A DNA stretch of 64,000 bases, from the NCBI RefSeq assembly GCF_964355755.1, contig NC_092670.1, positions 13,019,201-13,083,200 on the forward strand. Direction: 5' to 3'. Of the stretch, positions 3,533-44,188 are shown one piece after another. How positions within the stretch are numbered: position 1 is the first letter of the stretch; each line of letters opens with the position of its first letter. The stretch comes from Antedon mediterranea. Taxonomy: Eukaryota > Echinodermata > Crinoidea > Comatulida > Antedonidae. A program made the position numbers and the translations under genes. Below the pieces are notes generated by a model. The model was not told the origin of the DNA, made no database searches, and saw nothing but the letters and a program-made list of their open reading frames with translations.

Positions 3533-6500
3533 TCACTTCTTAATAGCGGGCTTAATAGTCATATATGTAGGTTCTTTGTTTTCTACATTTATGTTCTCTT
3601 TCCTTATTACATTTTGATACGGAGGTTCAAACTTATGTTGACCTTCAAACTGATGTTGATCTTTAAACTGATTTTGACCTTCAGCCTGATGTTGACCATC
3701 AGCCTGATGTTGATCTTCAACCTGGTGTTGACCTTCAACCTGATGTTGACCTTCAACCTGATGTTGACATTCAACCTGATGTTGACCTTCAACCTGATGT
3801 TGACCTTCAACTTGATGTTGATCTTCAATCTGATGTTGATCTTCAATCTGATGTTGATCTTCAATCTGATGTTGACCTTCAACCTGATGTTGACCTTTAA
3901 CCTGATGTTGACCTTCAACCTGATGTTCAAACTGATGTTGACCTTCAAACTGATGTTGACCTTCAAACTGATGTTGACCTTCAAACTGATGTTGACCTTC
4001 AGACTGATGTTGATGTTCAGCCTGATGTTGCTGTTCAGCATTATGTTGACCTTCTGCATTATGTTGACCTTCAACCTGATGTTGTTCTTCAACCTGATGT
4101 TGATGTTCAATCTGATGTTGATCTTGTTCCTCTTCGTCTTCACTTGCCGTACCACCAATCTCAAAAGGAAGAGCATCTAAGCGACAGCTGTTATCCCACA
4201 TATTTACAACTCCTCTTGGTTGATAGGGACCGCCGTTTGTCATCAGTGACTGACAATCGGGGGGTAGTGGAAGTGAAAGTCGTGTATTGTCAAATTCTGA
4301 AAAAATAAACATTTACAACAATTATAATTATAATACAATACACGGTATACCACGAATATAGTGTAACCTCTAGTATTAAAATGGAACCTTCACTCTTCCC
4401 TATGGGCACCAAAGTGTAACTCGATAGAGGTGTCGTCTGAACAGGGGTTATCTTACTATTCAATAAAATAGTTTTTCTTACCATATTTTGCTGTGATTTC
4501 GTTAACTTTGTCTGCTGCATTGGCCATTCCACACGTTCGAAAATGAGGTACTAGCTTTCTAAAATCATTGTCATTCATATTGAGATATCTAGTAACAGCA
4601 AGCTCAATGTCAGTATTGTTCTTTTCTTCCTGATCAAAGTCTTGGTAGAGAAACTCTAAAAATTCTTGTGTCGGTGGGCTCGATTGGATAGCATCGCAGA
4701 TTGTGTTCATCTTGTCTTTGTTTACATTAGTTTGGGGTTTTTTTAAATGCTTTTCTCTCGTTGTGTTGCTTAGATGTATTGTTGTTGTGTATGTTCTTTC
4801 CGTAACAGTACAATCTATAAGGTGTATATCGGATGTTTCGGAAACTGGAATGCCCCATCTAACAGATGATACATTGTCATCGAAAACACCCACATGATAT
4901 TTATATAACGGCACCTGTAAATATAACACACTTTACCTTTAAAAAATGGTACCGTATGCATTTTATTATTTATATTTAGAAAATTAAAGGCTCAGCAAAT
5001 GTTTGTTACTTCATACTGCTTATTTTGATAGAAAAAACACACACACAATTTGTGAAGAAACAGAATTCCTGAATTTGCCTACCAGTATCCTTCTCAACTT
5101 TCAACATGTACATGCTAAATACCCTATGTCTGTTTCTGTTATCACTGCCAAATGATTGTCTTAAACATTCATAGTATAATCTATACTATTAATTTTATGA
5201 TTATTTAACATTATTAATTAATTGTTTTTAAATAACTTAATAGTGTATAAAAACATTTGCTTAGTCTGGTCTGCTCGTGCTTACAGGTGCTCGGTACACT
5301 TTGAAGCTAGTTTGTAATATTACCTTACGATCATCGATAATGATATGAATGTTAGAATCTTTGTTGCAATAGCATTGCTTCCCAGAATCCAATGCGTTTC
5401 CTGGGTCTTCTTTCTATAAATATTAAATGGTATTGATATGATTTTTACAAATTTATTTTTACTTACTATAAAGCAAGAAGAACAATTAGCACAAACGAAA
5501 AGATGCATTGTCCTCAAAGCATGACATTAATTAAGATTAATAAAATTACACTTTGAATATTTTGCAGTCTTTATAAAGTTCCGTAGACAAGCCTGTCAGA
5601 TGTGTTGTCAAAGTAAATATCTGACAATAAGCAAGTAAAATAGGTATACAATTATAATTATATCAAAATGGCTTGTATATCAGTGTGCTTAAAAACACTT
5701 TAAAAACAATAAACATTTTAAAATTCATAATAACTTTAGCTTAAGTGAATTCCTCATTGTATGTGTGCTTCGTTATGATTGAAGTTTGACAATACATATA
5801 ATAATGGAATTGACAACTTTTACGCACATATTTTTAAATGATCATTAAAGTATTGGAATATAACAGTTATTTTCTTACATAGATTTTTCTGAATTCTACG
5901 AGAACCTCTTGTCGCCCGTGAACATATCCTCTACATGCGTTTATCTCCAAAAGCGTCATCCACTCGAGTTCTGTACAAGTATCGTTCGCTTGGACCATTT
6001 CTGTTTTGAACTTGCTGAAGTGCTTCACTATTATACACGACTTATTATTCTTTATGTATGCCGTACCATCAGACTTGCACATTTTGGTCCAGTCGCCATT
6101 TTCCTGCTTACAAGATATAATAGATCTTGGTTTTTGTAGTAACTTATTTGGTACATTACCGTACAGCTCGACACGAAGTGTCACGTACATATCGAATGTG
6201 AGACCTGGTGGACCACACATTACTTCTGGGCATAAGGGAATCTTTCCATCGGTTTTCATATATCCCAAGTTGTAGATGAAAACATACGCCTGCTTTGGCA
6301 ACGCGCCTTCTGGAATTGTCAATGAAATGTTGCCCAGCGTTAGTGTCGCACCTTCATGCCCAACAATCGCGACTAGCATTCGTTTATCTTCAGATACTAT
6401 GTATTTTTCCCATGGCTTCTCCTGTTTTAAAGTTCGTATTGCATCAGTGTACATACTTCTAATTTTTGGTTCTTTTATGGTGTTTTCTTCAATCTGTCCT

Positions 6501-7795
6501 GGTTCTTCCTGATAAAATATAATACAATTTCATTCGTTATTGTTGAACCAGGGAAGAGTGGAATTTCTTCTCCCTGGTTGTACACTATCAACATTTTTTA
6601 ATCGATTAGGATAGACGTTTAGTTTTTAGTCGCGTGGAAGCGACTCTATTGTTCACTATGTCGGTCGGTCTGTCGGTCTGTCGGTCTGTCGGTCTGTCGG
6701 TCCGGTATCACTATGCGTTTTATCGCTTTCTGACCTTATCTTGATATCAGTTTAATCTAGCTAGGTCAATTTTTCACAGTATATTCCTTATGGCCAGGAA
6801 TCGATGTGGTTATGTTTTCACGGTGCGCAATAAAAAAATTACGCGTTCTACGCACGATTTAACGAGATCACGTTTGTAATCATATCTTCACAACCATGAA
6901 TCACAATTAAATAAAATTTGGTACTCATAAATTTCAGGGCATAAATCATCATATGGCAATACAATTACGTGCGTAGCGCATGTAACACATACGTACGCGC
7001 GCTTAAAATTTTCAAAATTTATTTTCGATGAAGTAAGAGTACGTTTAAGGCAATTTTAAGCGTTTACAAAATTGCCATGAGTGCCCATATTTTTGCGCGC
7101 GCACGCGTTAAATGTTGTTGTGCACTCTTTTTGCCCGATTTCTGTTTTCTTGACCTACTTTTCAACTCGAAATTACGTTATACGAGCACGTCAAAAGTGA
7201 CAGGCTACGCACGTGTAAATTAAAAAAATATAAATGTTTTTAAACATTTCAACATTTTTAAACATGTTCAGTAATTTCGGTCAGTATAGTTCACTATGTC
7301 GGTCGGTCGGTCTGTCTGTCTGTCGGTCTGTCGGTCTGTCTGTCGATCCGGTATCACTATGCATTGTAGCACGCGACTTAATGGCTGTTGGCCTTGTTAG
7401 TTATATGGATAATTCTGAATAAAGTTATACATTTTTACATAGTTTTTATAGTTTAGTTTGATTTGATACGTTAAATGTTGGAATGTTTTTGATGTATATT
7501 ACCTTGGTTTCAGGTGGCATGAAGTATGCGTAATCATTTTCCTCGCAATTTGACTGATCTTCTTTGTCTTTCTGATTGGTGCTACAATATTCTTTTTTCA
7601 ATGCACTTTTGCGATTTTCTTCAGACGAATTCGTCATGTTATTGGTCATGTTTTCATTTTCTTGTTGATGATTGTCACCCTTCGATTTGCGATCGTATTC
7701 ATGATTCATTGATGCATTTAAACAGTTAGAATTCCCGATATTAAATATGACATCTTTCCCGTCGTACTGCACTACTTCTTGCAAAGAATCTGAAC
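3533..7795 (-). CDS. Gene A: ZU5-UPA-death-fold protein with hexapeptide-repeat tail (5' end not found)
   Basis: Five exons are joined by eye: 7503-7795, 5879-6508, 5324-5413, 4482-4914 and 3533-4296. All have GT-AG borders and matching phases, giving about 736 residues plus an unseen N-terminus. The first exon begins in phase 1 after ACAAG and encodes a polar linker rich in N, E, K and S. The 210-codon second exon is a ZU5 domain, recognised by GATLTLG, TIPEGALP and CGPPGLTF. Its end, the 30-codon exon and the start of the next exon fit a UPA domain. The 4482-4914 exon closes with a helical death-fold segment (EFLEFLYQDFDQEEK to FRTCGMANAADKV). The last exon carries the QHQxEG repeat and a YQNV/YMTI tail. 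The order matches UNC5/UNC5CL/PIDD relatives, so a cytoplasmic death-signalling adaptor role is inferred. No transmembrane segment is seen in these exons. A minus-strand AATAAA lies at 3491-3496. Confidence 0.75.
3623..4120 (-). repeat. Coding minisatellite in gene A, 18-bp unit, about 28 copies
   Basis: An 18-bp unit encodes QHQxEG, with x being V, F, I or A. It repeats about 28 times inside the last exon of gene A. It sits between the acidic SEDEEE stretch and the PYQNV tail, exactly where paralogues B and D have only a short link. Variants include QHNAEG and QHQIED. One junction lacks two codons but stays in frame. Because the unit has no stop in several frames, the other minus frame (3607-4176) and one plus frame (3614-4180) are also open; those are shadows. 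Confidence 0.9.
5879..6508 (-). CDS. Gene A ZU5 exon
   Basis: This phase 0-0 exon of 210 codons starts after ATCAG (GAAGAACC) and ends at the donor TAT|GTAAGA. ZU5 signatures are GATLTLGNISLTIPEGALP and VMCGPPGLTF. The C-terminal 60 residues (LLEINACRGYVHG to FRKIY) begin the UPA region. Length is identical in paralogues B and D. Confidence 0.85.
6621..7400 (+). mobile_element. Long AGTCGCGT element with (TCGG/TCTG)n tracts, inside gene A intron
   Basis: It starts AGTTTTTAGTCGCGTGGAAG, then a TCGG/TCTG tetranucleotide tract and GGTATCACTATGCGTTTTAT. About 500 bp of unique sequence follows, then a second tetranucleotide tract, ending ACGCGACTTAATGGCTGTTG. A reverse-oriented copy lies at 29757-30494. 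It occupies the intron between the linker and ZU5 exons of gene A. There is no coding capacity; the class is unknown. Confidence 0.6.
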
Positions 7796-10618: not shown

Positions 10619-11513
10619 TGTTTTTAGTCGCGTGGACGCGACTCTATAGTTCACTATGTCGGTCGGTCGGTCGGTCTGTCGGTCTGTCGGTCCGGTATCA
10701 CTATGCGTTTTATCGCTTTTCTGTACTTTTTGAACTGTTTTGATGTACAGACAATTAGTCGCGTGGATGGACGCGACTCTATAGTTCACTATGTCGGTCG
10801 GTCTGTCGGTCTGTCGGTCTGTCTATCGGTCCGGTATCACTATGCGTTTTATCGCTTTTCTGTACTTTTTGAACTGTTTTGATGTACAGACAATTAGTCG
10901 CGTGGGTGGACGCGACTCTATAGTTCACTATGTCGGTCGGTCTGTCGGTCTGTCGGTCTGTCTGTCGGTCTGTCTGTCGGTCCGGTATCACTATGCGTTT
11001 TATCGCTTTTCTGTACTTTTTGAACTGTTTTGATGTACAGACAATTAGTCGCGTGGGTGGACGCGACTCTATAGTTCACTATGTCGGTCGGTCTGTCGGT
11101 CTGTTGGCCTGTCTGTCGGTCCGGTATCACTATGCGTTTTATCGCTTTTCTGTACTTTTTGAACTGTTTTGATGTACAGACAATTAGTCGCGTGGATGGA
11201 CGCGACTCTATAGTTCACTATGTCGGTCGGTCTGTCGGTCTGTCGGTCTGTCTGTCGGTCCGGTATCACTATGCGTTTTATCGCTTTTCTGTACTTTTTG
11301 AACTGTTTTGATGTACAGACAATTAGTCGCGTGGGTGTACGCGACTCTATAGTTCACTATGTCGGTCGGTCTGTCGGTCCGGTATCACTATGCGTTTTAT
11401 CGCTTTTCTGTACTTTTTGAACTGTTTTGATGTAAAGAAAAGTTTTAAAGTACATTACTTTTTGAAAGTTCATTTTTTTCTGAGAGCACGCGACTTATGG
11501 CTGTTGGCCTTGT
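10619..11513 (+). repeat. Tandem array of the AGTCGCGT element, six units of about 140 bp
   Basis: Units start at about 10625, 10757, 10896, 11047, 11188 and 11328. Each has the GTCGCGTGG...GACGCGACTCTATAG hairpin, a variable TCGG/TCTG tract, and GGTATCACTATGCGTTTTAT to GATGTACAGACA. The array closes with the family's 3' end (GCACGCGACTTATGGCTGTT). The SVGRSVGL-type reading frames here are repeat shadows, not genes. Confidence 0.8.
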
Positions 11514-17660: not shown

Positions 17661-17724
17661 ACGTGCGGTACTCTTTCAAAATTTGTGAATTTGTGAACGT
17701 TCTGCTATAGTTTGTTTTCTATAA

Positions 17725-19660
17725 TCACTTTGGTGAAAATCCCATATATGATAGATTACTGTTTTCTACATTTGAGTTCTCTTTCCTTTTAACATTTTGA
17801 TAAGTAGGTTTAGCTCGATCTGGATAGCCTAGTTCTTCTTCACCATCACTTGACGCCCCAACCTCAAAAGGAATTAACTTTTGTGGTCCACAGCTGACAT
17901 CCTCTACATTCGCTACTCCGTGTGAAAATATACCGCCGGTTGCACCCAGAGGTTGAATATCTGGTGTCAGAGGAAGCGACCGTCGTGACTTGTCATAGCC
18001 TAAACAAAAGACAATTAGAATCATTCAACAATGCGCCAAAACAGTTATTCTTATAGTAGAAGCAGAATATTAAAAAAAAAACATTTTTTTTACCCAAAAT
18101 GTCTGTAATTTTGTCAACTTGATCTGCTGCATCAGCCATTCTACACCTTCGGAGATGGGGTAAAAGCTCTTTAAAATCGATGTCGTTCATATTAAGATAT
18201 CTGATGATAGCCAGCTCTAGAGAAATATAGTTCTTTTCTTCTTGGTCGAAACATTGATACAGGAACTCTTCAAATTCTGGTGTCAGGCCCTTTTTGATGA
18301 CAGGACAGATTATGTCCATGTTTTCCTTGCTTAAGTTAGTTTGTGGTTTTTTAAAATGGTTTTCCCTGTTCTCAGTCACATTTATTTTGGTTGTGTGTAC
18401 ATTTCCGGTAACTTCTACATGATGTATATCGGATGCGTTCAAAGCATCCGATATAGGGATGCTGAATGTAACTGAAGATAATTTGCTATCAAAAACACTT
18501 GCAAGGTAGTTATGTTCTTCGTTATATAATGGCACCTGTAAAACATTATTTTTGTTTATTTTTTATACCAGTAGTAGAATGATACAATATTATTAATACA
18601 ATGATCTCTATTCTTCATTTAATTTATTTTTTCATTTTTTTATAAATAATATTACACATTTCAGTAACGCTCATATTTGGCCTAATTTACTCAGTACCAA
18701 TTTTCCTCCTCAATGGTACATTTACGTTTTCTTATACATACCTCGTCGTGACCTTCAAAAATGATATTAATTTCTGAATCCTCACTGCAATAGCAGTGCT
18801 TCTCTGAATTCAATGAGTTGATTGGATCTTCATTCTATAATATTAATAGTTAGAGATAATAATAGTTCAATTTAAAAAGTAGTACACAGTTCCAATCAGT
18901 TTAGATCATCTTGTCAGGTCAAGCCTGTCTAGTGCCGGAAATCATGAATATTCAGAATAAATAGTTGTAGTAGAATATTTTTTATAAATGGCATTGAAGA
19001 ATATTGAAATTTTATACAAATGCTACTTACATCAACTTTCCTAAATTTAACTTGAATCTCTTCTTTTCCATGGACAGATGATGATTTACATGCGTTTATC
19101 TCAAAAAGTCTCATCCGTTCAAGTTTTGAACCATCTTCGTTTGTTTGGTCTACTTCTGCGTTGAACTTTGTGAAATGGTTCACTATTACACACATCTTAT
19201 TATACTTAATGTATGCCATGCAATCAAGCTTGTACATCTTAGTCCAGTCGCCATCTCCCTGTTTACAGGATACAAGAGATCTTGGTTTTTGTAGACATTT
19301 TTCAGGTATGTTACCGAACAGCTCAATACGAAGTGTCACGTACATTTCGAATGTAAGACCTGGTGGACCGCACATTACTTCTGGACATAGCGGAATCTTT
19401 CCATCGGTTTTTATATATCCTAAGTTATAGATGAAAACATACGTCTGCTTTGGCAACGCGCCTTCTGGAATTGTCAATGAAATCTTTCCCAACGTTAGCG
19501 TCGCACCTTCCTTGTCAACAGTCGCAACTAACATTCGTTTATCCTCAGATAGTATGTATTTCAAACCTGGATTATCCTTTAAATATCTCTTTAAACAAGT
19601 GTATATACTCTTAATTTCAGGTTCCTGTATGGTGCTGTCTGGAACTTGTCTTGCCTCTTC
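17725..19660 (-). CDS. Gene B: ZU5-UPA-death-fold protein, N-terminal exon missing
   Basis: Four exons are seen: 19031-19660 (ZU5, 210 codons), 18742-18834 (31 codons), 18094-18535 (UPA end plus death fold) and 17725-17999 (tail). All phases match genes A and D, giving 479 residues with no internal stop. ZU5 motifs include GATLTLGKISLTIPEGALP and CGPPGLTF. The death-fold part runs from GLTPEFEEFLYQCFDQEEK to LRRCRMADAADQVDKI. The tail ends in PTYQNVKRKEN and SYMGFSPK. The linker exon found upstream of the ZU5 exon in A and D is not seen between 19660 and gene C at 21602, and a foldback element occupies much of that gap. B may be 5'-truncated, driven from another exon, or a recent pseudogene. 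Exons and introns are nearly identical to gene D, which points to recent duplication or gene conversion. Confidence 0.7.
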
Positions 19661-20188
19661 CTGGTGAGAATAAAATGAATATAGGCCTAACGTCCATGTT
19701 TCTTATTCGTTATTTAAAAAAATATTTGTTGTCTTTTGCGAACGTTATTGTATTGTTATTGAAAATTAATGCCGCTACATACTTTCAATTATTAGATTGT
19801 TTATGTTTTGTTTCATAATTAGCCAGTCAGCCTCTGCTGACAATTGCATATTGTTTAAAAAAAACAAAAAGGTGTTTATGTTCTTTGGTAGCCTATCTCT
19901 ATTTTCGTTTTTTTATACTAACGAATTAAATAATAAACCATAAGTCGTTATTCACATTATCAAGATAACCCTACATACATACATACATACTGAAAAAATG
20001 ACAATGCTGTGAGTATCAGTGGCTGGATCTCAATAGAGATATAAAAAAAAGCGAAAAGCTAAATCAAAACGATAAAGTAAAACAGACAGGAAAATTGGCA
20101 GAGCTTTCGGGCAACACTAGCCCTTCATCAGTGCAAGTGAATATATATATATCCAATCGAGTTTGAACAATACTATGAAGGCCCTTAA

Positions 20189-20262
20189 TTGTGGTCTAAT
20201 GGTTAGGACAGCTGCATATCAAGCAGACGGTCCGAGTTCGAGTCTCGATTGGGGCGACTTTT
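20189..20262 (+). pseudogene. tRNA-like sequence, anticodon loop ATATCAA
   Basis: It contains the A-box GTGGTCTAATGGTTAGGAC, an anticodon stem CTGC/GCAG around ATATCAA (anticodon position ATC), and the B-box GAGTTCGAGTCTC, followed by TTTTT. The 5' acceptor strand does not pair with the 3' GGGGCGAC, so this is a tRNA remnant or SINE head, not a functional gene. Confidence 0.5.
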
Positions 20263-20306
20263 TCTCATTCTCACAGATTTCCTCATCTTTATCGTTTCAA
20301 ATTAAT

Positions 20307-20520
<214 letters not shown>

Positions 20521-21601
20521 TATGTATATATATTTAGTCTTGCACTGATGAAGGGCTAGTGTTGGCCGAAAGCTCTGCTAACTTTTCTGGCTGTTTTACG
20601 TTATCTTTGTCCTGAGAGGCTAACCTTGGCAGTGTAATAATACACCTTCTCATCATTCGATTGTTCTGCGTCTGTATAAATGACACAATAGTCAATATTA
20701 TTTGGTTACAATACTTTAGTAATAAACTTCTCTATATATTGTAATATTTAAAATAGACATTAGGCCTAATTATAAACTCCAATTTGTTTATGTTATTGTC
20801 TATGCTTGTGCAATATCAAAACCATGACCTGGTTAGCAAAGCAAGCATACAATGCGGATTGATCGTGTGAATTTAGGTGATTTTCTAGAAATTGATACTA
20901 AGCTAAACCACTGTTGTGTGTGATAGGTAATTCACTCAGCTTTGCCTCGTGTGAATTAGGGTGGTGCGTTCTGTATTAACATTCACTGTATACACAAGCA
21001 AATGAAATCAAATATTTTGAATATATATAAAAGCCGCTTGCATAATAAAAAAAAATGAATTTAAATAGTAAACACGTGTCATTAAAAAAAATACAGCCTC
21101 AAATCGATTTTTAAAATTTTTAAATAGGACTCCTCGTCGTTGTAAAATCTTTAAGCTAATGTGGAGAAAGACATTTTTTACAATAAAGCAAATCAAAGAA
21201 ATCATACATATACAACTTTGCATACAAAGGAATACAACTTGTGCGTGTCATACATACAGTTTAAAATCGTATTTCGTATTTCGTTTTTTTTTTATGTTTG
21301 CGTTAATTTGTCGGCTCTTCTAAATGTATTATCAAAACCTATTTTAAAGATAACAATTAAAGGTTGCATATTTGCTTGGCAAAATGCATCTTCGTTTAGG
21401 AAGGACAATTTTTAGTAATTGATGATTAAGATAATATTCTTTACAGTAGGAAGGGCAGGTCACGTCAGGACAATACAAATAATGTGTAAAATTAGTAGGT
21501 CTACTATGATGTGTCAGATCGAGGAGAAATAAATTAATTTCGAGAAAACGATCCTATTTGGAGGGAACGAAATAATAGCTGATGTGGCCGAAATAGGCCT
21601 A

Positions 21602-24600
21602 CTAAGCCTGATGAAGCTCTAAAAAGTTACCTTGTTCTTCTTCCTTCTTTCGAATGTAAAAAGGAAGATCTTGTAAGTCACAGTTATCATCCCCCAATTG
21701 AATATTTGGAGTCAATGGAGATCTGCGTGACATGTCAAAATCTAAACATAAGAAATGAAAAAAAAAATAGAATCATTATATTAAATAATGTACAAGCTCC
21801 TTATGTTAAAAAATATAGTCATGAGTTGGATGCACAAAACATAACATGATGAAAATAGTATTATAATAATGAATATTAGCATATTATACATTATACCTAT
21901 TATAGTCGCTTTTATGCAATACAGCATATTCGATTAAATAAGGGGCCATAATTATTTTAAACAACACTAAACTCTAAACATAACAGAATTATAATCAAAT
22001 AATATTTTAAAGTTATTGTATTAGTTTTAATTTAATACAGCGGAATGACACGCAGTACCTGCGATTTCGTTCACTTTGTCTGCTGCATGGGCCATTCCAC
22101 ATGTTCGAAGATGAGGTTCTAGCTTTCTAACATCATTGTCATTCATATTGAGATATCTAGTAACAGCAAGCTCAATGCTAGTATTGTTCTTTTCTTCCTG
22201 ATCAAAGTCTTGGTAGAGAAACTCTTCGAATTCTTGGGTCAGGTTCTTCTCGATGGTAGCGCAGATTATTTTCATGGAGTCTTTGTTTACGTTAGTTTGA
22301 GTTTTTTTTAAATGATTGTCTCTGCTCGTCATGCTTAGATTTATTTTGGACATGTATGCGCTTCCCTTGACAGTATAGTTTATATGGTATACGTCAGAGG
22401 TTTCCAAAACTGAGATCCCCCAACTAACGGATGAGAAATTTCTATCAAAAACGGCATATGTATATAACGAAACCTCCTGAAACAAATAACTGTAGTGTTA
22501 CTTGACCTTCATTATAAATATTCATTTTAAAGCAAAGATATAAATGGAATCATTAAAGGATAATGTTAACAGTCAAGTATTACGGTATGTTAAATCATGA
22601 ACGAATTTTACCTATCTCTAAATCAACGTAAAATGTTTAATCGCGGAAATTGAATTTATTTAAAAGGTATTTTAAATTTAAACACATTCACACAAATTAA
22701 TGATAAAGCTGTATTTACAAATTTGGACATGAATGGTATGAAACATAATAAATGAGTTTGATATATTATGTAAAAATCAACCAGTCGCTGTATTCCACGT
22801 CTAATACTGTATACGTATGTGATCAAACATTATCGTAATAAGCCTACACTACTCTATTGAGAGTTGAAATTTCGCATACTTTTACGAACTTGAGTTACAT
22901 CGTCTCCTGCATACGCTTGAACTCAGTCACTCAGTCTCTGCTATCATATAAATGCAACTGTACCTGCTTTGAATTTTAACTTACTATGGGATTTTCAATA
23001 CCGATATCAATTGCTGTATCCTTATCTCTATTCTTCTTTTATTTCTTTTTATAAAATAATATTACACATTTTAGTAACGCTCATATTTGTTACCAGTACC
23101 AATTTTCCTCCTTAATGGTACGTTTTCTTATACATACCTCGTCGTAACCTTCATAAATGATATCAATTGCTGTATCCTTATTGCAATAGCAGTGCTTCTC
23201 TGAATTCAAAGAGTTGATTGGATCTTCATTCTATATTAATAGTTAGATATTAAAATTGTTAGTCTTTGTCTTTACAATGTCCACGAGATACATTGACATT
23301 ACTGTAGTTTTAATACAAACATAAAAAAAAAATTAGAATTACGATGTTTAGCCTAAACCTCTCAAAGTAAAACTATTAAAAATAATAGTGGAGTTGATAT
23401 TCAAACAAAGGCTAAACTACTTTATATAACACCTAAATAAATTCCTGTCATTTGATTGGACGATTGTGGGTCACATGGCGTGCAATAGTACGCACTATTA
23501 AACGATCGTTTAATGTTATTGTTATGACTGGTTTAGCAATGGAAATACATTTTCGGAGAGAGATATACAATATAATATGTACTCATTTAGATCAAAAAGG
23601 CATTTAAATTAGCTTTAGATCATTTTTAGGACTTTGATTAATTAATGGCAACATCTCTACAAGGCGTGGAATCGTAGAAAAGAAACATAATTAGCCTAGA
23701 TGAGTGTCTGTCGAAGTTTTGCCTTTCAGCCTAGCTAGTACTAGGCCTGTTAGTAATAGGCTATGCCTAGCCTAGGCGTTTTAGCCTTGCTAGGCCTAGG
23801 ATTATTTGGTCGTTTGTTGACATAATTAACACTAAAGTAGGTGCTTGTGATAAAATCTATATAAATATACATTTAATATATTATTATTAAAAACTAAATG
23901 TTAATGTTTTAATCAATATGAATCAAGTGTAGGCCTTGGCTAGGCCTACCTTTTATTTCATTCAAATGACCGGAATCTATTTAGATGTTATGTAAAACAA
24001 AATAATGAATGTTTTAAATTCGTGTAACGGTACAAATAATGGCATTTGGTGAATGATGAAAGGTTAAATATTAACTCGGCTTTGCCTCGTTGATATATAA
24101 CCTTTCATCATTCACTTCATGCCATTATTTGTACCATTACACTCATAAACATTCATTATTTGTATAATATTGCACTTTGATACTAATGTCGATTACATAA
24201 ACTTTTCTGAATTCAACGTAAATATCTTCTCTTCCGTAGAATGATTCTCTACATGCGTTTATTTCCAAAAGCATCATTCGCTCGAGTTCTGAACAATCAT
24301 TTCCTTGGTCCAATTCTGTTCTGAAATGTGTGTCTTGTTTCACTGCTATACAAATTAGAGTTTAGAAATGTGTTATAAGTGTACATGAGTAGACAATTTT
24401 AAGAGAAAGATTGAATTCCAATAAGAGCCCAGCATATTTCTTTGCTCCATCTGTAGTTTTTCACCCCTATTATAATAGTGACAACATTTGTTACTTTAAG
24501 TTTACCTTTTGCATTTGTTCCTTTGAGCATGCGTAATGCGTCGTTGTAATTAAGTTGATCAATGTGTGTGATCCATTCCTTTTGAAATATTTTCTGCTGA

Positions 24601-26932
24601 TTTTCGTCTAAAACTAATATTTCTCCTAGGTCTTTAAGAAGCTGTCCACTTTGATGCATTTCCCATATGTGTATTAATGCATATTTGTCAATTATAGACA
24701 GTGTGAGAACTATAGATCCTTTTCCTATGTGCAATAATTTCGAACCATTTACTTGGACGTAGTAGTAAACACGATGCTGTAGTTTATTATTAAATTCCTT
24801 CGCAGCATCAGCATTTAGACTGCCAACATATTGGTCAAGTTGATCTAAGATGTCATCATCTATGTCGTTTTCGTTCTTTCTTTTAAGAGTTACGGTTAGT
24901 TGAGCTTCTATAATAATTGAATGATTAGAAAATATTTTCTGTACGGTATATTATCGATTATATTCGTGCAATATTTAGTAACTAATGAGATTTATCTGTA
25001 TACAATTCCTTACGTTAAACCAGTAATTAGATATACGTGTGTGACGTGCAGTTTCGATTTCGTGGTAATGAAAGGATGTTAGTGGTTGCTAGGAGCAGCT
25101 TTTTAAAACTCACAATAAAAGGTGAAGGTGAGTCCCGTATTCATTCTGAACGTAGGGGTGAGCTGTTAGGAGCTCATTGTACTAAGCCTCGGCATTATGT
25201 GGTAGGGTGGCCAGTTCCTTTCCACACCGCCTTTTTCTCCCTAGTATTTTAAACCAGGTACTCATTTACAGCTGAGTGGACTGGGAGTTGTCTGGAATTG
25301 AACCCGGGTCTATCTTTATGACAGTCAAGTGTCCTAACCACTCGGCTATCCAACTCCAACAATACATATATTTAAATATAAATCAGTTAAAACAGTTTTC
25401 GAAGATAATGTGATTTAATAAATGGAGGAGATGTAGATTATTAAAAATATAAATGTTTACGTTTGTATCAACTAAATTTAAGTAAAAAAATAATTGCAGT
25501 ATTTTCAACTTGGTTAATGTTAAGAGTGTAAGACATCTTGGCATTTTATTTAAAGGGCTCCAAGTAATTGTCTGAAACACGAGAAACATATCACCTTTGA
25601 ATTATACATCAATTTGTTTATTGACCGTACCGTATCAATAATGTCTTACCCTTTAAATTAACTGTATCAACTTTAAACAAATTATCGATAATGTTATGAT
25701 ATAACACGTACAGAAAATGTTGCTTAAAACTTTAACAACCTTACATACCTTGCGTAAGAATTTCCACAGCTTTATGTAGTCCAATATTTGTCAAGGTCTT
25801 AATAAATGTTTCCATTTTCCCACTTTCTTTACAAATAATATGTGTGTGTTGTAGATCAAAAATAAGATCCCACCCATCTTTATAGTTCTTTGGTGGCCTA
25901 TTGTACGAAGTATCAATTTTTTTTACATCTTCCTCTATTAATTCATTTCCAAACTTTGTAATTTGTTGTTGATGATGGCTGAATTTCGTAATAATCTTGT
26001 TTTTAACTTCAGAAAGTGAGGGTATGTGTACGAAAGTTCGAAGTTTGTCTACAATACCAAACTGCTTGGTGGCCTTAATGGTATCAAACAGAAGGGTGAG
26101 ATCTTTTGAACTTAGTTCTCCAGAATTAATTAATTGATTGAGCAAGTCCATCGTTGTAGTGGCCCTAGATAAATCAGCTTCTTCAATATAACCATGATAC
26201 AAAACTTTCAGTTTACTGATAAGTGATCGTTCATCATACCAAGTTGAAAAACATACTAAAGCCTGATTAAAAGAGTTTTCTAAAAAAGGAAGAAGCCCAT
26301 AATATATAAAAAAAAAACTTTAACAATACAAACATTGGATCTTATAATTTGTAAAATGTACTAATGGCAAAGGTCCAAGAAGCAGTATTTTATTTCAAAT
26401 CAGGTTAAGACATGACTCAATAATTCATTTCTGGCATAAATTAGGATGTTATAGAGGGCGCTATACACAGGTATGGAACAGGTTTCGGTTTGGCCAAGTG
26501 ATAGTCTTCAGTTTATGGAACTGATGCTCATCAACATCATCCTTGTTTTTTTAAAATATAGATATAGTTGAGTTGAGAGAGATTAGGGCTATGATCAGTT
26601 GTATTTAGAACATATGTCAGTAATGTAATTCTTTATCATAGAAAATAATAAATCTGCCTTACCCTGATTTGTAAATCTGTCTTTTATTTTTAATATTATA
26701 AATTAATCAAAACATGTGTATTAATACCAAAACTATGAGCAAATTAAGGTATCAAACACAATTTATAATGGCAAATTGTTTTGCTGGTCCGTGAATAATC
26801 AGGGATGATTAAATTATTCGTAATCATCACCGCCATGAGTGAAAATTAGTAATATGTGAAATCCTGTAGGTCTACAACAATTTTGTACAGTCGATGTACG
26901 TAAAATAGAGGTGACTTACCTGATTCAGCCAT
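21602..26932 (-). CDS. Gene C: DED / TRADD-N-like / UPA / death-fold chimera, 581 aa
   Basis: Seven exons are joined by eye: 26920-26932, 25749-26279, 24506-24907, 24197-24345, 23138-23230, 22059-22476 and 21602-21741. They total 1746 nt with every phase matching and no stop. The ATG (MAES) precedes a GTAAGT donor. Exon 2 holds a death-effector-like domain (STWYDERSLISKLKVLYHGY to TIKATKQFGIVDKLRTF), aligning in pattern with the FADD DED. A second helical DED-like stretch follows (KNYKDGWDLIFDLQ to IGLHKAVEILTQ). Exon 3 encodes an alpha/beta domain with GKGSIVLTLSIIDKYALIHI and a long acidic helix, similar in pattern to TRADD-N domains; this assignment is tentative. Exons 4-6 match the end of the ZU5 exon, UPA and death fold of genes A, B and D. 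The last exon is short and lacks the YQNV tail. An adaptor role in apoptosis or immunity is inferred. The exon 4 donor (GTAATC) is weak. Confidence 0.7.
24003..24159. mobile_element. Hairpin MITE in gene C intron
   Basis: Arms of about 65 bp (TAATGAATG..., GGTACAAATAATGGCAT, GAATGATGAAAGGTTA) are inverted around a short CGGCTTTGCCTCG centre. It ends 37 bp inside the intron after the exon 4 donor of gene C. Confidence 0.7.
24197..24345 (-). CDS. Gene C exon 4: truncated ZU5 exon (UPA start only)
   Basis: This stretch aligns with the 3' end of the ZU5 exons of A, B and D (AVKQDTHFRTELDQ versus IVKHFSKFKTEMVQ in A; LLEINACRESFYGREDI versus LLEINACRGYVHGRQEV). The ZU5 core upstream is gone. The acceptor TTTGTATAG|CAGTG lies within what is coding sequence in the paralogues. 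Phase 1 in, phase 0 out. Donor TAT|GTAATC is weak. Confidence 0.6.
24506..24907 (-). CDS. Gene C exon 3: TRADD-N-like alpha/beta domain
   Basis: This phase 1-1 exon of 402 nt is bounded by TATAG|AAGC and AAAAG|GTAAAC. It reads EAQLTVTLKRKNEND, a helical DAAKEFNNKLQ segment, YYYVQVNGSKLLHIGKGSIV, then IWEMHQSGQLLKDLGEILVL. A predicted strand, G-S-hydrophobic strand, long helix, and D-E-N turn are typical of invertebrate TRADD-N-like domains fused to death-fold and TRIM proteins. The family name rests on pattern memory. A symmetrical phase 1-1 exon is the kind that moves easily by exon shuffling. Confidence 0.5.
25125..25357 (-). mobile_element. tRNA-derived SINE in gene C intron
   Basis: The minus-strand head (25284-25357) has a seven-pair acceptor stem (GGAGTTG/CAACTCC), A-box TAGCCGAGTGGTTAGGAC and B-box GGGTTCAATTCC. 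The body continues with GGTACTCATTTACAGCTGAG-type sequence (given here as the plus strand). It lies between exons 2 and 3 of gene C. Confidence 0.6.
25749..26279 (-). CDS. Gene C exon 2: death-effector domain plus second DED-like fold
   Basis: The acceptor CTTCCTTTTTTAG is followed by AAAACTC; entry phase 1 completes the exon 1 codon. The donor is CAAG|GTATGT, phase 1. It encodes about 177 residues. The first 80 follow the DED pattern: a hydrophobic six-helix layout with MDLLNQLINSGELSSKDLTL resembling the FADD LDLFSMLLEQ region. Residues from about 115 to 175 look like a second, more diverged copy. No caspase, kinase or nucleotide-binding motif is visible. Confidence 0.7.
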
Positions 26933-29756: not shown

Positions 29757-30494
29757 CAAGGCCATATAGATGGCTGCAGTCGCATGCTCATTAGTGTTTA
29801 ACGAACCGACAGACCAACCTACCAACTGACCGAAATTACTGAACATGTTTAAAAATGTTGAAATGTTTAAAAACATCTATATTTTTTTAATTTACACGTG
29901 CGTAGCCTGTCACTTTTGACGTGCTCGTATAACGTAATTTCGAGTTGAAAAGTAAGTCAAGAAAACAGAAATCGGGCAAAAAGATTGCGCAATAACATTT
30001 AACGCGCAGTGCGTGCGCAAAAATCTGCGCACTCATGGCAATTTTGTAAAAGCTTAAATTGCCTGAAACGTACTCTTATTTCATCGAAAATAAATTTTGA
30101 AAATTTTAAGCGCGCGTACGCATACGTTGCATGCGCTACGCACGTAATTGTATTGCCATATGATGATTTATGCCCTGAAATTTATGAGTACCAAATTTTA
30201 TTTAATTGTGATTCATGGTTGTGAAGATATGATTACAAACGTGATTTCGGTAAATCGTGCGTAGACCGCCTAATTTTTTATTGCGCACCGTGAAAACATA
30301 ACCACATCGATTCCTGACCATAAGGAATATACTGTGAAAAATTTACTTAGCTAGATTAAACTGATATCAAGATAAGGTCAGAAAGCGATAAAACGCATAG
30401 TGATACCGGACCGACAGACCAACCGACAGACCGACCGACCGACAGACCGACCGACATAGTGAACTATAGAGTCGCGTCCACGCGACTAAAAAAA
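29757..30494 (-). mobile_element. Long AGTCGCGT element, reverse copy
   Basis: The full-length inverse of 6621-7400. The right end (plus strand) is GAGTCGCGTCCACGCGACT, preceded by a GACCGACC tract. The internal AACATGTTTAAAAATGTTG and CACGTGCGTAGCCTGTC words match. The left end carries GGCTGCAGTCGCATGC. The two copies diverge by point changes only over most of their length. Confidence 0.65.
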
Positions 30495-31296: not shown

Positions 31297-33913
31297 TCAC
31301 TTTGGTGAAAACCCCATATATGATGGATTTTTGTTTTGTACATTTGAGTTCTCTTTCATTTTAACATTTTGATAAGTAGGTTCAGCTCGATCTGGATCGT
31401 GTAGTTCTTCTTCACCGTCACTTGACGCCCCAACCTCAAAAGGAATTAACTCTTGTGGTCCACAGCTGACATCCCCCACATCCGCAACTCCTTGTGAAAA
31501 TATACCGCCGGTTGCACTCAGAGGTTGAATATCTGGTGTCAGAGGAAGCGACCGTCGTGACTTGTCATAGCCTAAATAAAAGACAATTAGAATCATTCAA
31601 CAATGCGCAAAACAGTTATTCTTATAGTAGAAGCAGAATATTAAAAAAAAACATTTTTTTTTACCCAAAATGTCTGTAATTTTGTCAACTTGATCTGCTG
31701 CATCGGCCATTCTACACCTTCGGAGATGGGGTAAAAGCTCTTTAAAATCGTTGTCGTTCATATTAAGATATCTGATGATAGCCAGCTCTAGAGAAATATA
31801 GTTCTTTTCTTCTTGGTCGAAACATTGATACAGGAACTCTTCAAATTCTGGTGTCAGGCCCTTTTTGATGACAGGACAGATTATGTCCATGTTTTCCTTG
31901 CTTAAGTTAGTTTGTGGTTTTTTAAAATGGTTTTCCCTGTTCTCAGTAAGATTTATTTTGGTTGTGTGTACATTTCCGGTAACTTCTACATGATGTATAT
32001 CGGATGCGTTTAAAGCATCCGATATAGGGATGCTGAATGTAACTGAAGATAATTTGCTATCAAAAACACTTGCAAGGTAGTTATGTTCTTCTTTATATAA
32101 TGACACCTGTAAAACATCATAGAAAAAAAAAGATTTATTTATTATTTACAATTCTACAAAATGCACTTATTCACGGATCATAGTAAATGTTGTGCAAGCA
32201 GTACAAATTGCTTTATCAAGTATGGACATTAATGTACAATGATACAACATTATTAATACAATGATCTCTATTCTATATTATTGAATTTTTTTCGGGATTT
32301 TTTTTATAAAATAATATTACACATTTCAGTAACGCTCATCTTATTTGGCCTAATTTACTCAGTACCAATTTTCCTCCTCAATGGTACATTTACGTTTTCT
32401 TATACATACCTCGTGACCTTCAAAAATGATATTAATTTTTGAATCCTCACTGCAATAGCAGTGCTTCTCTGAATTCAATGAGTTGATTGGATCTTCATTC
32501 TATAGTTAGAGATATCAATCACACTGGTTATATAATAATAGTTCAATTAAAAAAAGTAGTACTGTACACAGTTCCAATCAATTTAGATCATCTTGTCAGG
32601 TCAAGCCTGTCTAGTGTCGGAAATGAATATTCAGAAGAAATAGTTGTAGTAGAATATTTTGTTTATAAATGGCATTGAAGAATAGAAATTTAAATGCAAA
32701 TGCTACTTACATCAACTTTCCTAAATTTAACTTGAATCTCTTCTTTTCCATGGACAGATGATGATTTACATGCGCTTATCTCAAAAAGTCTCATCCGTTC
32801 AAGTTCTGAACCATCTTCGTTTGCTTGGTCTACTGCTGCATTGAACTTTGTGAAGTGGTTCACTATTATACAAATCTTGTTATTCTTAATGTATGCCATG
32901 CAATCAAGCTTGTACATCTTAGTCCAGTCGCCATCTCCTTGTTTACAGGATACAAGGGATCTTGGTTTTTGTAGACATTTTTCAGGTATGTTACCGAACA
33001 GCTCGATACGAAGTGTCACGTACATGTCGAATGTAAGACCTGGTGGACCGCACATTACTTCTGGACATAGCGGAATCTTTCCATCGGTTTTCATATATCC
33101 TAAGTTATATATGAAAATATACGTCTGATTTGGCAACGCGCCTTCTGGAATTGTCAATAAGATCATGCCTAATGTAAGCGTTGCACCTTCCTTGTCAACA
33201 GTCGCAACTAACATTCGTTTATCTTCAGATAGTATGTATTTCAAACCTGGATTATCCTTTAAATATCTCTTTAAACCAGTGTACATACTCTTAATTTCAG
33301 GTTCCTTTATGGTGTTGTCTGGAACGTGTCCGGATTCTTCCTGCTGCGAATAAAAAAACACAAAAATCAATGTTTACTATTCATTATTGTACATAATTGA
33401 ATATTGTCGATCAGATCAACTTTTTGTTTGTAGGCCTATTCACAAATTTAAAAATAACAGTATTAATAATAATAGTTTATTGTTATATAGTGCTGAAATA
33501 TATTATATATAATGTTAAATAATGTTGCATAAGGTTTATATTAATTTGGTTTATTTGTTTTGGTTTAGTGCAATCTTTTGGTAAATGATACATTTTTTAC
33601 AATCTGAAAAAAAACCTTTAAAATTGTAAACTTGTATTTCCATGTACCTTAATGGTTCCTGGTTGTTCGTATGTGTGAACATCGTCCTCACCATTCGACT
33701 CTTCTTCTCTGTCTTTCTGAATGGTGCAATATGCACTTAGGCGATTTTCTTCAGACGAATTCGTCGTCGTGACATTGGTCATTTTTTTCTTTTGTTGTTG
33801 ATGATCATTGTCATATTTTGGTTGGTGATCGTTGTCATGATCCATTGGTACATTTTTGGAATTCCCGATATTCAGCATGACATTTTCCCTGTTGTAGAAA
33901 ACTACCTCTTCTC
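31297..33913 (-). CDS. Gene D: ZU5-UPA-death-fold protein (5' end not found)
   Basis: Five exons: 33648-33913, 32711-33340, 32410-32499, 31665-32106 and 31297-31571. They give about 567 residues plus an unseen start. The linker exon begins in phase 1 after ACAAG, as in gene A. It is rich in D, H, N, Q and K and ends at AAG|GTACAT. The ZU5 exon may use either of two acceptors three bases apart (CAGCAG). ZU5 signatures are GATLTLGMILLTIPEGALP and CGPPGLTF. The 30-codon exon contains HCYCSEDSK. The next exon finishes UPA and gives a death fold (LTPEFEEFLYQCFDQEEK). The tail exon has SLPLTPDIQPL, an acidic GEEEL stretch, PTYQNVKMKEN and SYMGFSPK. Protein and introns are nearly the same as gene B. 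A ZU5-UPA-death signalling adaptor is inferred by domain order. Confidence 0.75.
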
Positions 33914-42420: not shown

Positions 42421-42885
42421 TTATTTTGATATTATTAATGGCGATTTTCTTCTCTTGACTAAACTATTATAATAATAACTACTATTTATAATAATGCTAG
42501 TATCCAAATATTATACCTGTGTGCTACATTAATGCCATAATAACAATATTCTGTTATACACCAGTATACAATATGATTTGAGAATTATAGTGATTTGTTT
42601 ATTTGTTGTTATGATAGCCTAAAGAATGATGAAATTATAAATGATTTACTGTAAAATAATGTTACCAGTTTATTTATTTTATACGTAGCTATAAATAATT
42701 TCGTAAATGCCATACAATGATAACAAAATCGACATATCATATCGACCTGTATATAATATATACAATATATATAATATAATACGTTTTTTATTTGTATGAC
42801 AATTTTGAATTCACAGTATATAACCCCTCCTTGGGACACCAGGAGATGCTTTCCTATGACATAAGTGATGGGGATCTTAATTAAA

Positions 42886-44188
42886 ACATGGACGGCAAAC
42901 CCCTACTCAGAGACCGAAGGTGTCTCATTAATAGAGCTTCTACTGTTAACACATGGACGGCAAACCCCTACTCAGAGACCGAAGGTGTCTCATTAATAGA
43001 GCTTCTACTGTTAACACATGGACGGCAAACCCCTACTCAGAGACCGAAGGTATCTCAATAATAGAGCTCTACTGTTAACACATGGACGGCAAACCCCTAC
43101 TCAGAGACCGAAGGTGTCTCAATAATAGAGCTTCTACTGTTAACACATGGACGGCAAACCCCTAATCAGAGACCGAAGGTGTCTCATTAATAGAGCTTCT
43201 ACTGTTAACACATGGACGGCAAACCCCTACTCAGAGACCGAAGGTGTCTCATTAATAGAGCTTCTACTGTTAACACATGGACGGCAAACCCCTAATCAGA
43301 GACCGAAGGTGTCTCATTAATAGAGCTTCTACTGTTAACACATGGACGGCAAACCCCTACTCAGAGACCGAAGGTGTCTCATTAATAGAGCTTCTACTGT
43401 TAACACATGGACGGCAAACCCCTACTCAGAGACCGAAGGTGTCTCAATAATAGAGCTTCTACTGTTAACACATGGACGGCAAACCCCTAATCAGAGACCG
43501 AAGGTGTCTCATTAATAGAGCTTCTACTGTTAACACATGGACGGCAAACCCCTACTCAGAGACCGAAGGTGTCTCATTAATAGAGCTTCTACTGTTAACA
43601 CATGGACGGCAAACACCTAATCAGAGACCGAAGGTGTCTCATTAATAGAGCTTCTACACTGTTAACACATGGACGGCAAACCCCTAATCAGAGACCGAAG
43701 GTGTCTCAATAATAGAGCTTCTACTGTTAACACATGGACGGCAAACACCTAATCAGAGACCGAAGGTGTCTCATTAATAGAGCTTCTACTGTTAACACAT
43801 GGACGGCAAACCCCTAATCAGAGACCGAAGGTGTCTCATTAATAGAGCTTCTACTGTTAACACATGGACGGCAAACCCCTAATCAGAGACCGAAGGTGTC
43901 TCATTAATAGAGCTTCTACTGTTAACACATGGGCGGCAAACCCCTAATCAGAGACCGAAGGTGTCTCATTAATAGAGCTTCTACTGTTAACACATGGACG
44001 GCAAACACCTAATCAGAGACCGAAGGTGTCTCATTAATAGAGCTTCTACTGTTAACACATGGACGGCAAACCCCTAATCAGAGACCGAAGGTGTCTCATT
44101 AATAGAGCTTCTACTGTTAACACATGGACGGCAAACCCCTAATCAGAGACCAAAGGTGTCTCATTAATAGAGCTCTACTGTATTGTTG
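42886..44188 (+). repeat. 65-bp minisatellite, 20 copies
   Basis: The unit reads CATGGACGGCAAACCCCTA, CTCAGAGACCGAAGGTGTCTC, then a TTAATAGAGCTTCTACTGTT segment. Copies are nearly identical; the common variant is CCCCTACTC against CCCCTAATC. GAGAC...GTCTC forms a hairpin in each unit. It is not coding. Confidence 0.95.

Follow-up and report, generated by a model that had tools for sequence, protein, structure and literature searches.

A putative chimeric gene joining a DED-TRADD-N head to a UPA-death tail without ZU5 in the crinoid Antedon mediterranea

Proteins in which a DED is followed by a TRADD-N domain and a variable tail, with FIIND and UPA-ZU5 among the tails, have already been published (Kaur et al. 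2021, PMC8195603), and TRADD-N was proposed there to act as an intramolecular switch. UPA is reported to lower the concentration at which the released fragments of CARD8 and NLRP1 form filaments (PMC7794386), while the autocleavage of CARD8 takes place directly before the last strand of ZU5 (PMC3210808). No mention of a UPA-death tail devoid of ZU5 was found in PMC8195603, whose source data lie outside this comparison, or in the related literature searched. The initial annotation of the locus described here regarded its domain order as being without precedent, which does not hold against the DED-TRADD-N proteins presented in PMC8195603. The type of layout is known from that work, and what appears to be new, as far as these sources go, is a UPA-death tail that lacks ZU5 and is truncated next to the cleavage site.

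The locus lies in a stretch of A. mediterranea DNA of 64,000 nucleotides (the window, to which positions refer unless a contig or locus is named) and consists of seven exons on the minus strand, 26932..21602, which join in phase to encode 581 amino acids followed by a stop codon (Table 1). The preferred reading, with a probability of about 0.66, is that these exons form one chimeric gene, whose DED-TRADD-N head would come from a dispersed family and whose tail would come from a tandem cluster of ZU5-UPA-death genes, with the loss of ZU5. Like the marine-invertebrate DED-TRADD-N proteins of the DEDD2 clade (PMC8195603), the chimera has a constant head of DED and then TRADD-N, with TRADD-N, carrying the uS turn, at the junction with the variable tail. 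Unlike the proteins described there, it ends in a putative UPA-death tail without ZU5, and the source of this tail can be read from the DNA as the adjacent tandem cluster. It resembles the ZU5-UPA-death proteins of the PIDD/UNC5 type in that its tail is paralogous to such genes of the same cluster, but it has neither ZU5 nor the HFS/HFT site and carries DED-TRADD-N in front. Like the UPA-CARD fragments released from NLRP1 and CARD8, it would have UPA and a death-fold-like domain but no attached ZU5; however, it is free of ZU5 by gene structure and not by self-cleavage, its death-fold-like bundle is not identified as a CARD, and it possesses an extra head. FADD similarly combines a DED, and TRADD a TRADD-N, with a death-fold tail, whereas the chimera has both head domains, a putative UPA between them and the probable death fold, and a tail of another family.

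Table 1. Exons of the proposed chimera and its ZU5-UPA-death paralogues in the window
Feature	Positions	Strand	Description
E1	26932-26920	(-)	start exon ATGGCTGAATCAG, phase-1 donor CAG/GTAAGT
E2	26279-25749	(-)	DED (protein residues 25-86) and conserved second half; symmetric 1-1 exon
E3	24907-24506	(-)	TRADD-N-like domain with KGS (uS) turn; symmetric 1-1 exon
E4	24345-24197	(-)	last part of ZU5, with QDT at the HFS/HFT position of the paralogues, then beginning of putative UPA
E5	23230-23138	(-)	middle of putative UPA; exon and flanking intron 84-85% like genes B and D
E6	22476-22059	(-)	end of putative UPA and probable death-fold bundle
E7	21741-21602	(-)	short tail and stop; without the YQNV stretch present in paralogues
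Paralogue A	3533..7795	(-)	ZU5-UPA-death, ZU5 34.4 bits (cut-off 21), HFS; modelled from the second-last known upstream exon
Paralogue B	17725..19660	(-)	ZU5-UPA-death, ZU5 35.2 bits; 5'-truncated versus D, homology to D ends at 19675
Paralogue D	31297..33913	(-)	ZU5-UPA-death, ZU5 30.3 bits, HFT; modelled part

All six introns of the chimera are GT-AG and the phases into E1-E7 are 0, 1, 1, 1, 0, 0 and 1, in agreement with the single consistent frame of 581 codons claimed in the initial annotation; the donor of E4 (TAT/GTAATC) was set at the donor position common to paralogues A, B and D. In a set of 40 simulated sequences (first-order Markov, 64 kb each), stop-free stretches of the length of E2 (at least 177 codons) occur with a mean of 0.05 per sequence, and those of the length of E3 (at least 134 codons) with a mean of 0.38. 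Judged in this way, the length of the open frame is by itself good evidence for E2 and weak evidence for E3, which is settled by its homologues in the genome (354 Mb, 18 contigs searched).

The E2 exon of the window matches Pfam DED at E=1.3e-5 with 25.8 bits, below the cut-off of 35.9, and of the 20 rows of the family alignment 19 match it with E no higher than 1, the best at 3.9e-9. This alignment includes 15 of the 150 scored places (that in the window among them), the locus L021 and, from E3 loci, four distant rows; L055, which contains an internal stop, and duplicates were left out. The family is dispersed and has at least 150 matches in the genome, including the window copy (150 of 437 candidates scored), and E2 and E3 are neighbours at many of the fetched family loci. 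No relatives of either exon were found in viral contigs. When compared with the PDB, the family profile reaches caspase-8, cFLIP and FADD at whole-sequence E-values of 0.005-0.03, and at 0.09 and weaker for single stretches, which offers modest but coherent support for E2 as a DED; the search with E2 alone finds no DED there. The RxDL motif, characteristic of DEDs, was not seen in E2. The second DED suggested for this exon is possible but unproven: the profile of the whole of E2 aligns with caspase-8 residues 17-117, which we take to reach the start of its second DED, but the second half of E2 searched alone finds no DED and the two halves do not align with each other (probability 0.7%).

For E3, the match to TRADD-like_N (PF20694) has E=8.2e-4 and 19.6 bits, below the cut-off of 23.7, and the same family is matched at E up to 1 by 8 of 19 aligned rows (best 1.1e-5). 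These rows were taken from the 40 genome matches of the E3 family, the window copy included, out of 63 candidates; 20 loci were fetched, of which L026 was left out because the local tblastn did not list it. As read from the alignment, the uS position at the turn is occupied by S in 14 rows and by C in the other 5, so that all 19 have one or the other, and the residue before it is G in 14, S in 3 and K in 2. Genome-wide, PF20694 finds two places at E<=0.001, neither of them a member of the E3 family, and thus the assignment rests on the motif, the position and the sub-threshold scores. Searches of the PDB with E3 alone and with the E3 profile return chance matches only and no TRADD. On those grounds E3 may be regarded as a TRADD-N-like domain with S/C at the beta2-beta3 turn, as in the family of Kaur et al. 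Both head domains named in the initial annotation, the DED and the TRADD-N-like exon, therefore stand, at scores below the respective Pfam cut-offs.

Among the 18 relatives examined (out of 39), 17 close E3 with a phase-1 GT donor, the exception being L023, so that further exons normally follow E3. What follows it was surveyed in the flanks of 8 relatives, with Pfam applied to frames chosen by eye from 5, and the result describes adjacency and not transcripts: the next recognised domains are leucine-rich repeats at two loci on C8, Death near a relative on C9 and helicase/HELZ2 near one on C2, and a RING/B-box/NHL frame near a relative on C7 perhaps belongs to a separate gene. The Death exon on C9 starts CATAG/AGGATAGG, i.e. 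in phase 1, as does the acceptor of E4. Judging from their sequences, the E3-family loci display the arrangement described by Kaur et al., a constant head with variable tails, and for the chimera we infer a splice joint from E3 to E4. Retrotransposon associations have been reported for the DED-TRADD-N family (PMC8195603); downstream of the DED-TRADD-N relative on C9, frames at L030:5840-8483 read by eye like a non-LTR retrotransposon. Elsewhere in the genome, matches to ZU5 and to the E2 family cluster 4-25 kb apart on C1 (2-4 Mb), C4 (16-20 Mb) and C8 (24.6 Mb), where further DED/ZU5 fusions are possible; the minus strand of 3 kb at C1:2267001-2270000 contains no open stretch longer than 69 aa.

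The kinship of the tail with the neighbouring ZU5 genes, also claimed at the outset, is supported by blastn (24193-24352 versus 5875-6037 of A, 76%; 24160-24355 versus 18994-19195 of B, 72%) and by the death exon E6, which has five matches in the genome (seven candidates), all located within 42 kb at C1:13,009,392-13,051,279. The other four genes of the E6 family (A, B, D and L059) have ZU5 above the Pfam cut-off, and gene A also yields weak ZU5 matches in the PDB (ZO-1, E=0.17; UNC5B, E=0.51). In the chimera ZU5 has no Pfam match, and a tblastn search of the window, introns included, with A, B and D as queries reveals none hidden; their ZU5 exons match the chimera only from the edge of E4 on. 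At the DNA level, the homology to the ZU5 exons begins 7 nt (versus A) to 10 nt (versus B) upstream of E4, and the E4 acceptor falls inside sequence that is ZU5 coding in the paralogues. The stretch TGTATAATAGTG in A corresponds to TGTATAGCAGTG in the chimera, and the AG so created would act as the E4 acceptor. E4 begins three residues before the position aligned with the self-cleavage motif (HFS in A; HFT in B, D and L059), which is missing in the chimera. The tail is a mosaic, with E4 and E6 closest to A, and E5 and its intron closest to B and D, so that gene conversion or composite duplication is its likely origin.

Some other features of the cluster and its surroundings may be recorded. 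The DNA of gene B (17672-19675) is 91-94% identical to that of D, and no homologue of the upstream exon of D was found nearby. The C-terminal tails of A, B and D keep a YQNV stretch, which we take to be a possible SH2-binding site. The upstream exons of A (7503-7795) and D (33648-33913) have in common a RHIM-like stretch (FNIGNSNCL and LNIGNSKNV); as a domain assignment for these exons RHIM was rejected, with no Pfam match up to E 10. In the last exon of gene A (3626-4125) an 18-bp repeat is present in about 28 copies, read as QHQVEG-like units, and a 65-bp tandem repeat with 20 copies and 97% matches occupies 42881-44181. Inverted copies with 95% identity, parts of which are common to repeats at 10632-11379, are found at 6623-7285 and 29825-30492 and perhaps represent a mobile element.

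The identity of the tail domains is less firmly drawn. E4-E7 match no Pfam family at E up to 10, matches to NCBIfam are chance ones, and a sequence search of the PDB gives none for the full chimera and none for the tail profile. Of the UPA and death fold proposed earlier, UPA has paralogy and its position after ZU5 in its favour but no Pfam or PDB sequence match, and it is a weak assignment; the death fold has a structure model in its favour but no Pfam Death match in the tail, and the E6 bundle is a probable death fold on the strength of that model. None of the 149 listed genome matches to PF00531 (best 150 of 179 candidates scored) lies in the window, the hhalign comparison of the death-exon profile with nine Death domains of the genome gives a probability of 8% over 22 columns, and Foldseek with the E6 model returns 416 matches at E<=10 and none at E<=0.001. 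The profile searches envisaged in the initial annotation thus succeeded in part, finding DED and TRADD-like_N in the chimera and ZU5 in A, B, D and L059, but not Death, UPA or ZU5 in the chimera. The same is true of structure prediction, which produced the bundle in the tail but a pLDDT below 50 in the UPA part and, for E2 predicted from a single sequence, a model with a pLDDT of 39 that was discarded.

A less likely alternative is that two genes are present, namely a short DED-TRADD-N gene of E1-E3, which ends in intron 2 or reads from E3 into intron 3, and a separate short UPA-death gene or cluster remnant made of E4-E7. The frame of E3 is indeed open for 35 codons beyond its donor, intron 2 contains three AATAAA/ATTAAA signals, in-frame ATGs in E4 allow a separate short gene, and gene B shows that 5'-truncated copies occur in the cluster. 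The division is opposed by the phase-1 donor that ends E3 in nearly all relatives examined, by the phase of E4, which matches that of E3, and by the constraint that one of the two selection tests detects on the tail. Intron 3 contains no AATAAA/ATTAAA signal, which would also speak against two genes; however, none is found within 1.9 kb downstream of E7 either, and therefore the absence from intron 3 is no argument for the E3-E4 joint (up to 600 nt past the stop, such signals are present in A and B and absent in D). It is also conceivable, with a very low probability, that the DED-TRADD-N exons are used both with their own tail and with the downstream gene B, which has no N-terminal exon. Compared with D, gene B breaks off 15 bp upstream of its ZU5 exon, tblastn detects nothing near it that is homologous to the N exon of A and D, and no poly(A)-like signal occurs at 19700-21601, between E7 and the region of the B ZU5 exon. 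Yet E3 ends in phase 1 and the ZU5 exon of B is read in phase 0, which prevents a direct in-frame join between the two, although E4 or E5 could be joined to it.

Even less credence is given to a decaying gene, i.e. a chimera that arose but is non-functional. On the tail branch of the chimera omega is 0.46 (LRT 5.62 versus omega=1, approximately p=0.02; five genes, 182 codons of E4 and E6, best of three topologies), and part of this branch may predate the fusion; in a four-gene test including E5, omega is 0.54 and omega=1 is not rejected (LRT 2.54). For the head, dN/dS is 0.37-0.45 against the seven relatives tried (four for E2 and three for E3). In simulations of neutral decay, the probability of retaining a frame without stops is about 0.2 at 0.05 substitutions per site, where an intact frame is not unlikely, 0.04-0.05 at 0.1 and 0.001-0.003 at 0.25. 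Decay would fit with the non-significant test, with an E7 shorter in the alignment than its counterpart in the paralogues and with the lack of a poly(A)-like signal past it, but it agrees poorly with 581 codons free of stops and frameshifts, with introns that are all GT-AG and with the omega obtained from five genes.

Under the preferred reading of one chimeric gene, the phase-1 donor of the head would be joined to a phase-1 acceptor newly formed in a duplicated ZU5 exon, and splicing to an acceptor within this exon would entail the loss of the ZU5 domain, a loss evident from homology. The head might recruit or sense via homotypic DED contacts, and TRADD-N might serve as an intramolecular switch, as Kaur et al. 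have proposed. The tail would be the counterpart of the UPA-death fragment released by self-cleaving ZU5-UPA proteins, in which UPA may oligomerise and so lower the threshold for death-fold assembly, as in CARD8/NLRP1. Since no ZU5 holds the tail, its control would have to lie with the head or with expression. Thus, it may be suggested tentatively, with the odds against it, that the product is a permanently ZU5-free UPA-death effector, in which release by self-cleavage has been replaced by DED-TRADD-N control, with the splice lying three residues before the cleavage site. If true, a single genome would reveal the donor family, the recipient cluster, the breakpoint and the splice phase behind a new adaptor of immunity or cell death, and nature would have provided an experiment on whether ZU5 is dispensable for the working of a UPA-death tail once a TRADD-N switch substitutes for it.
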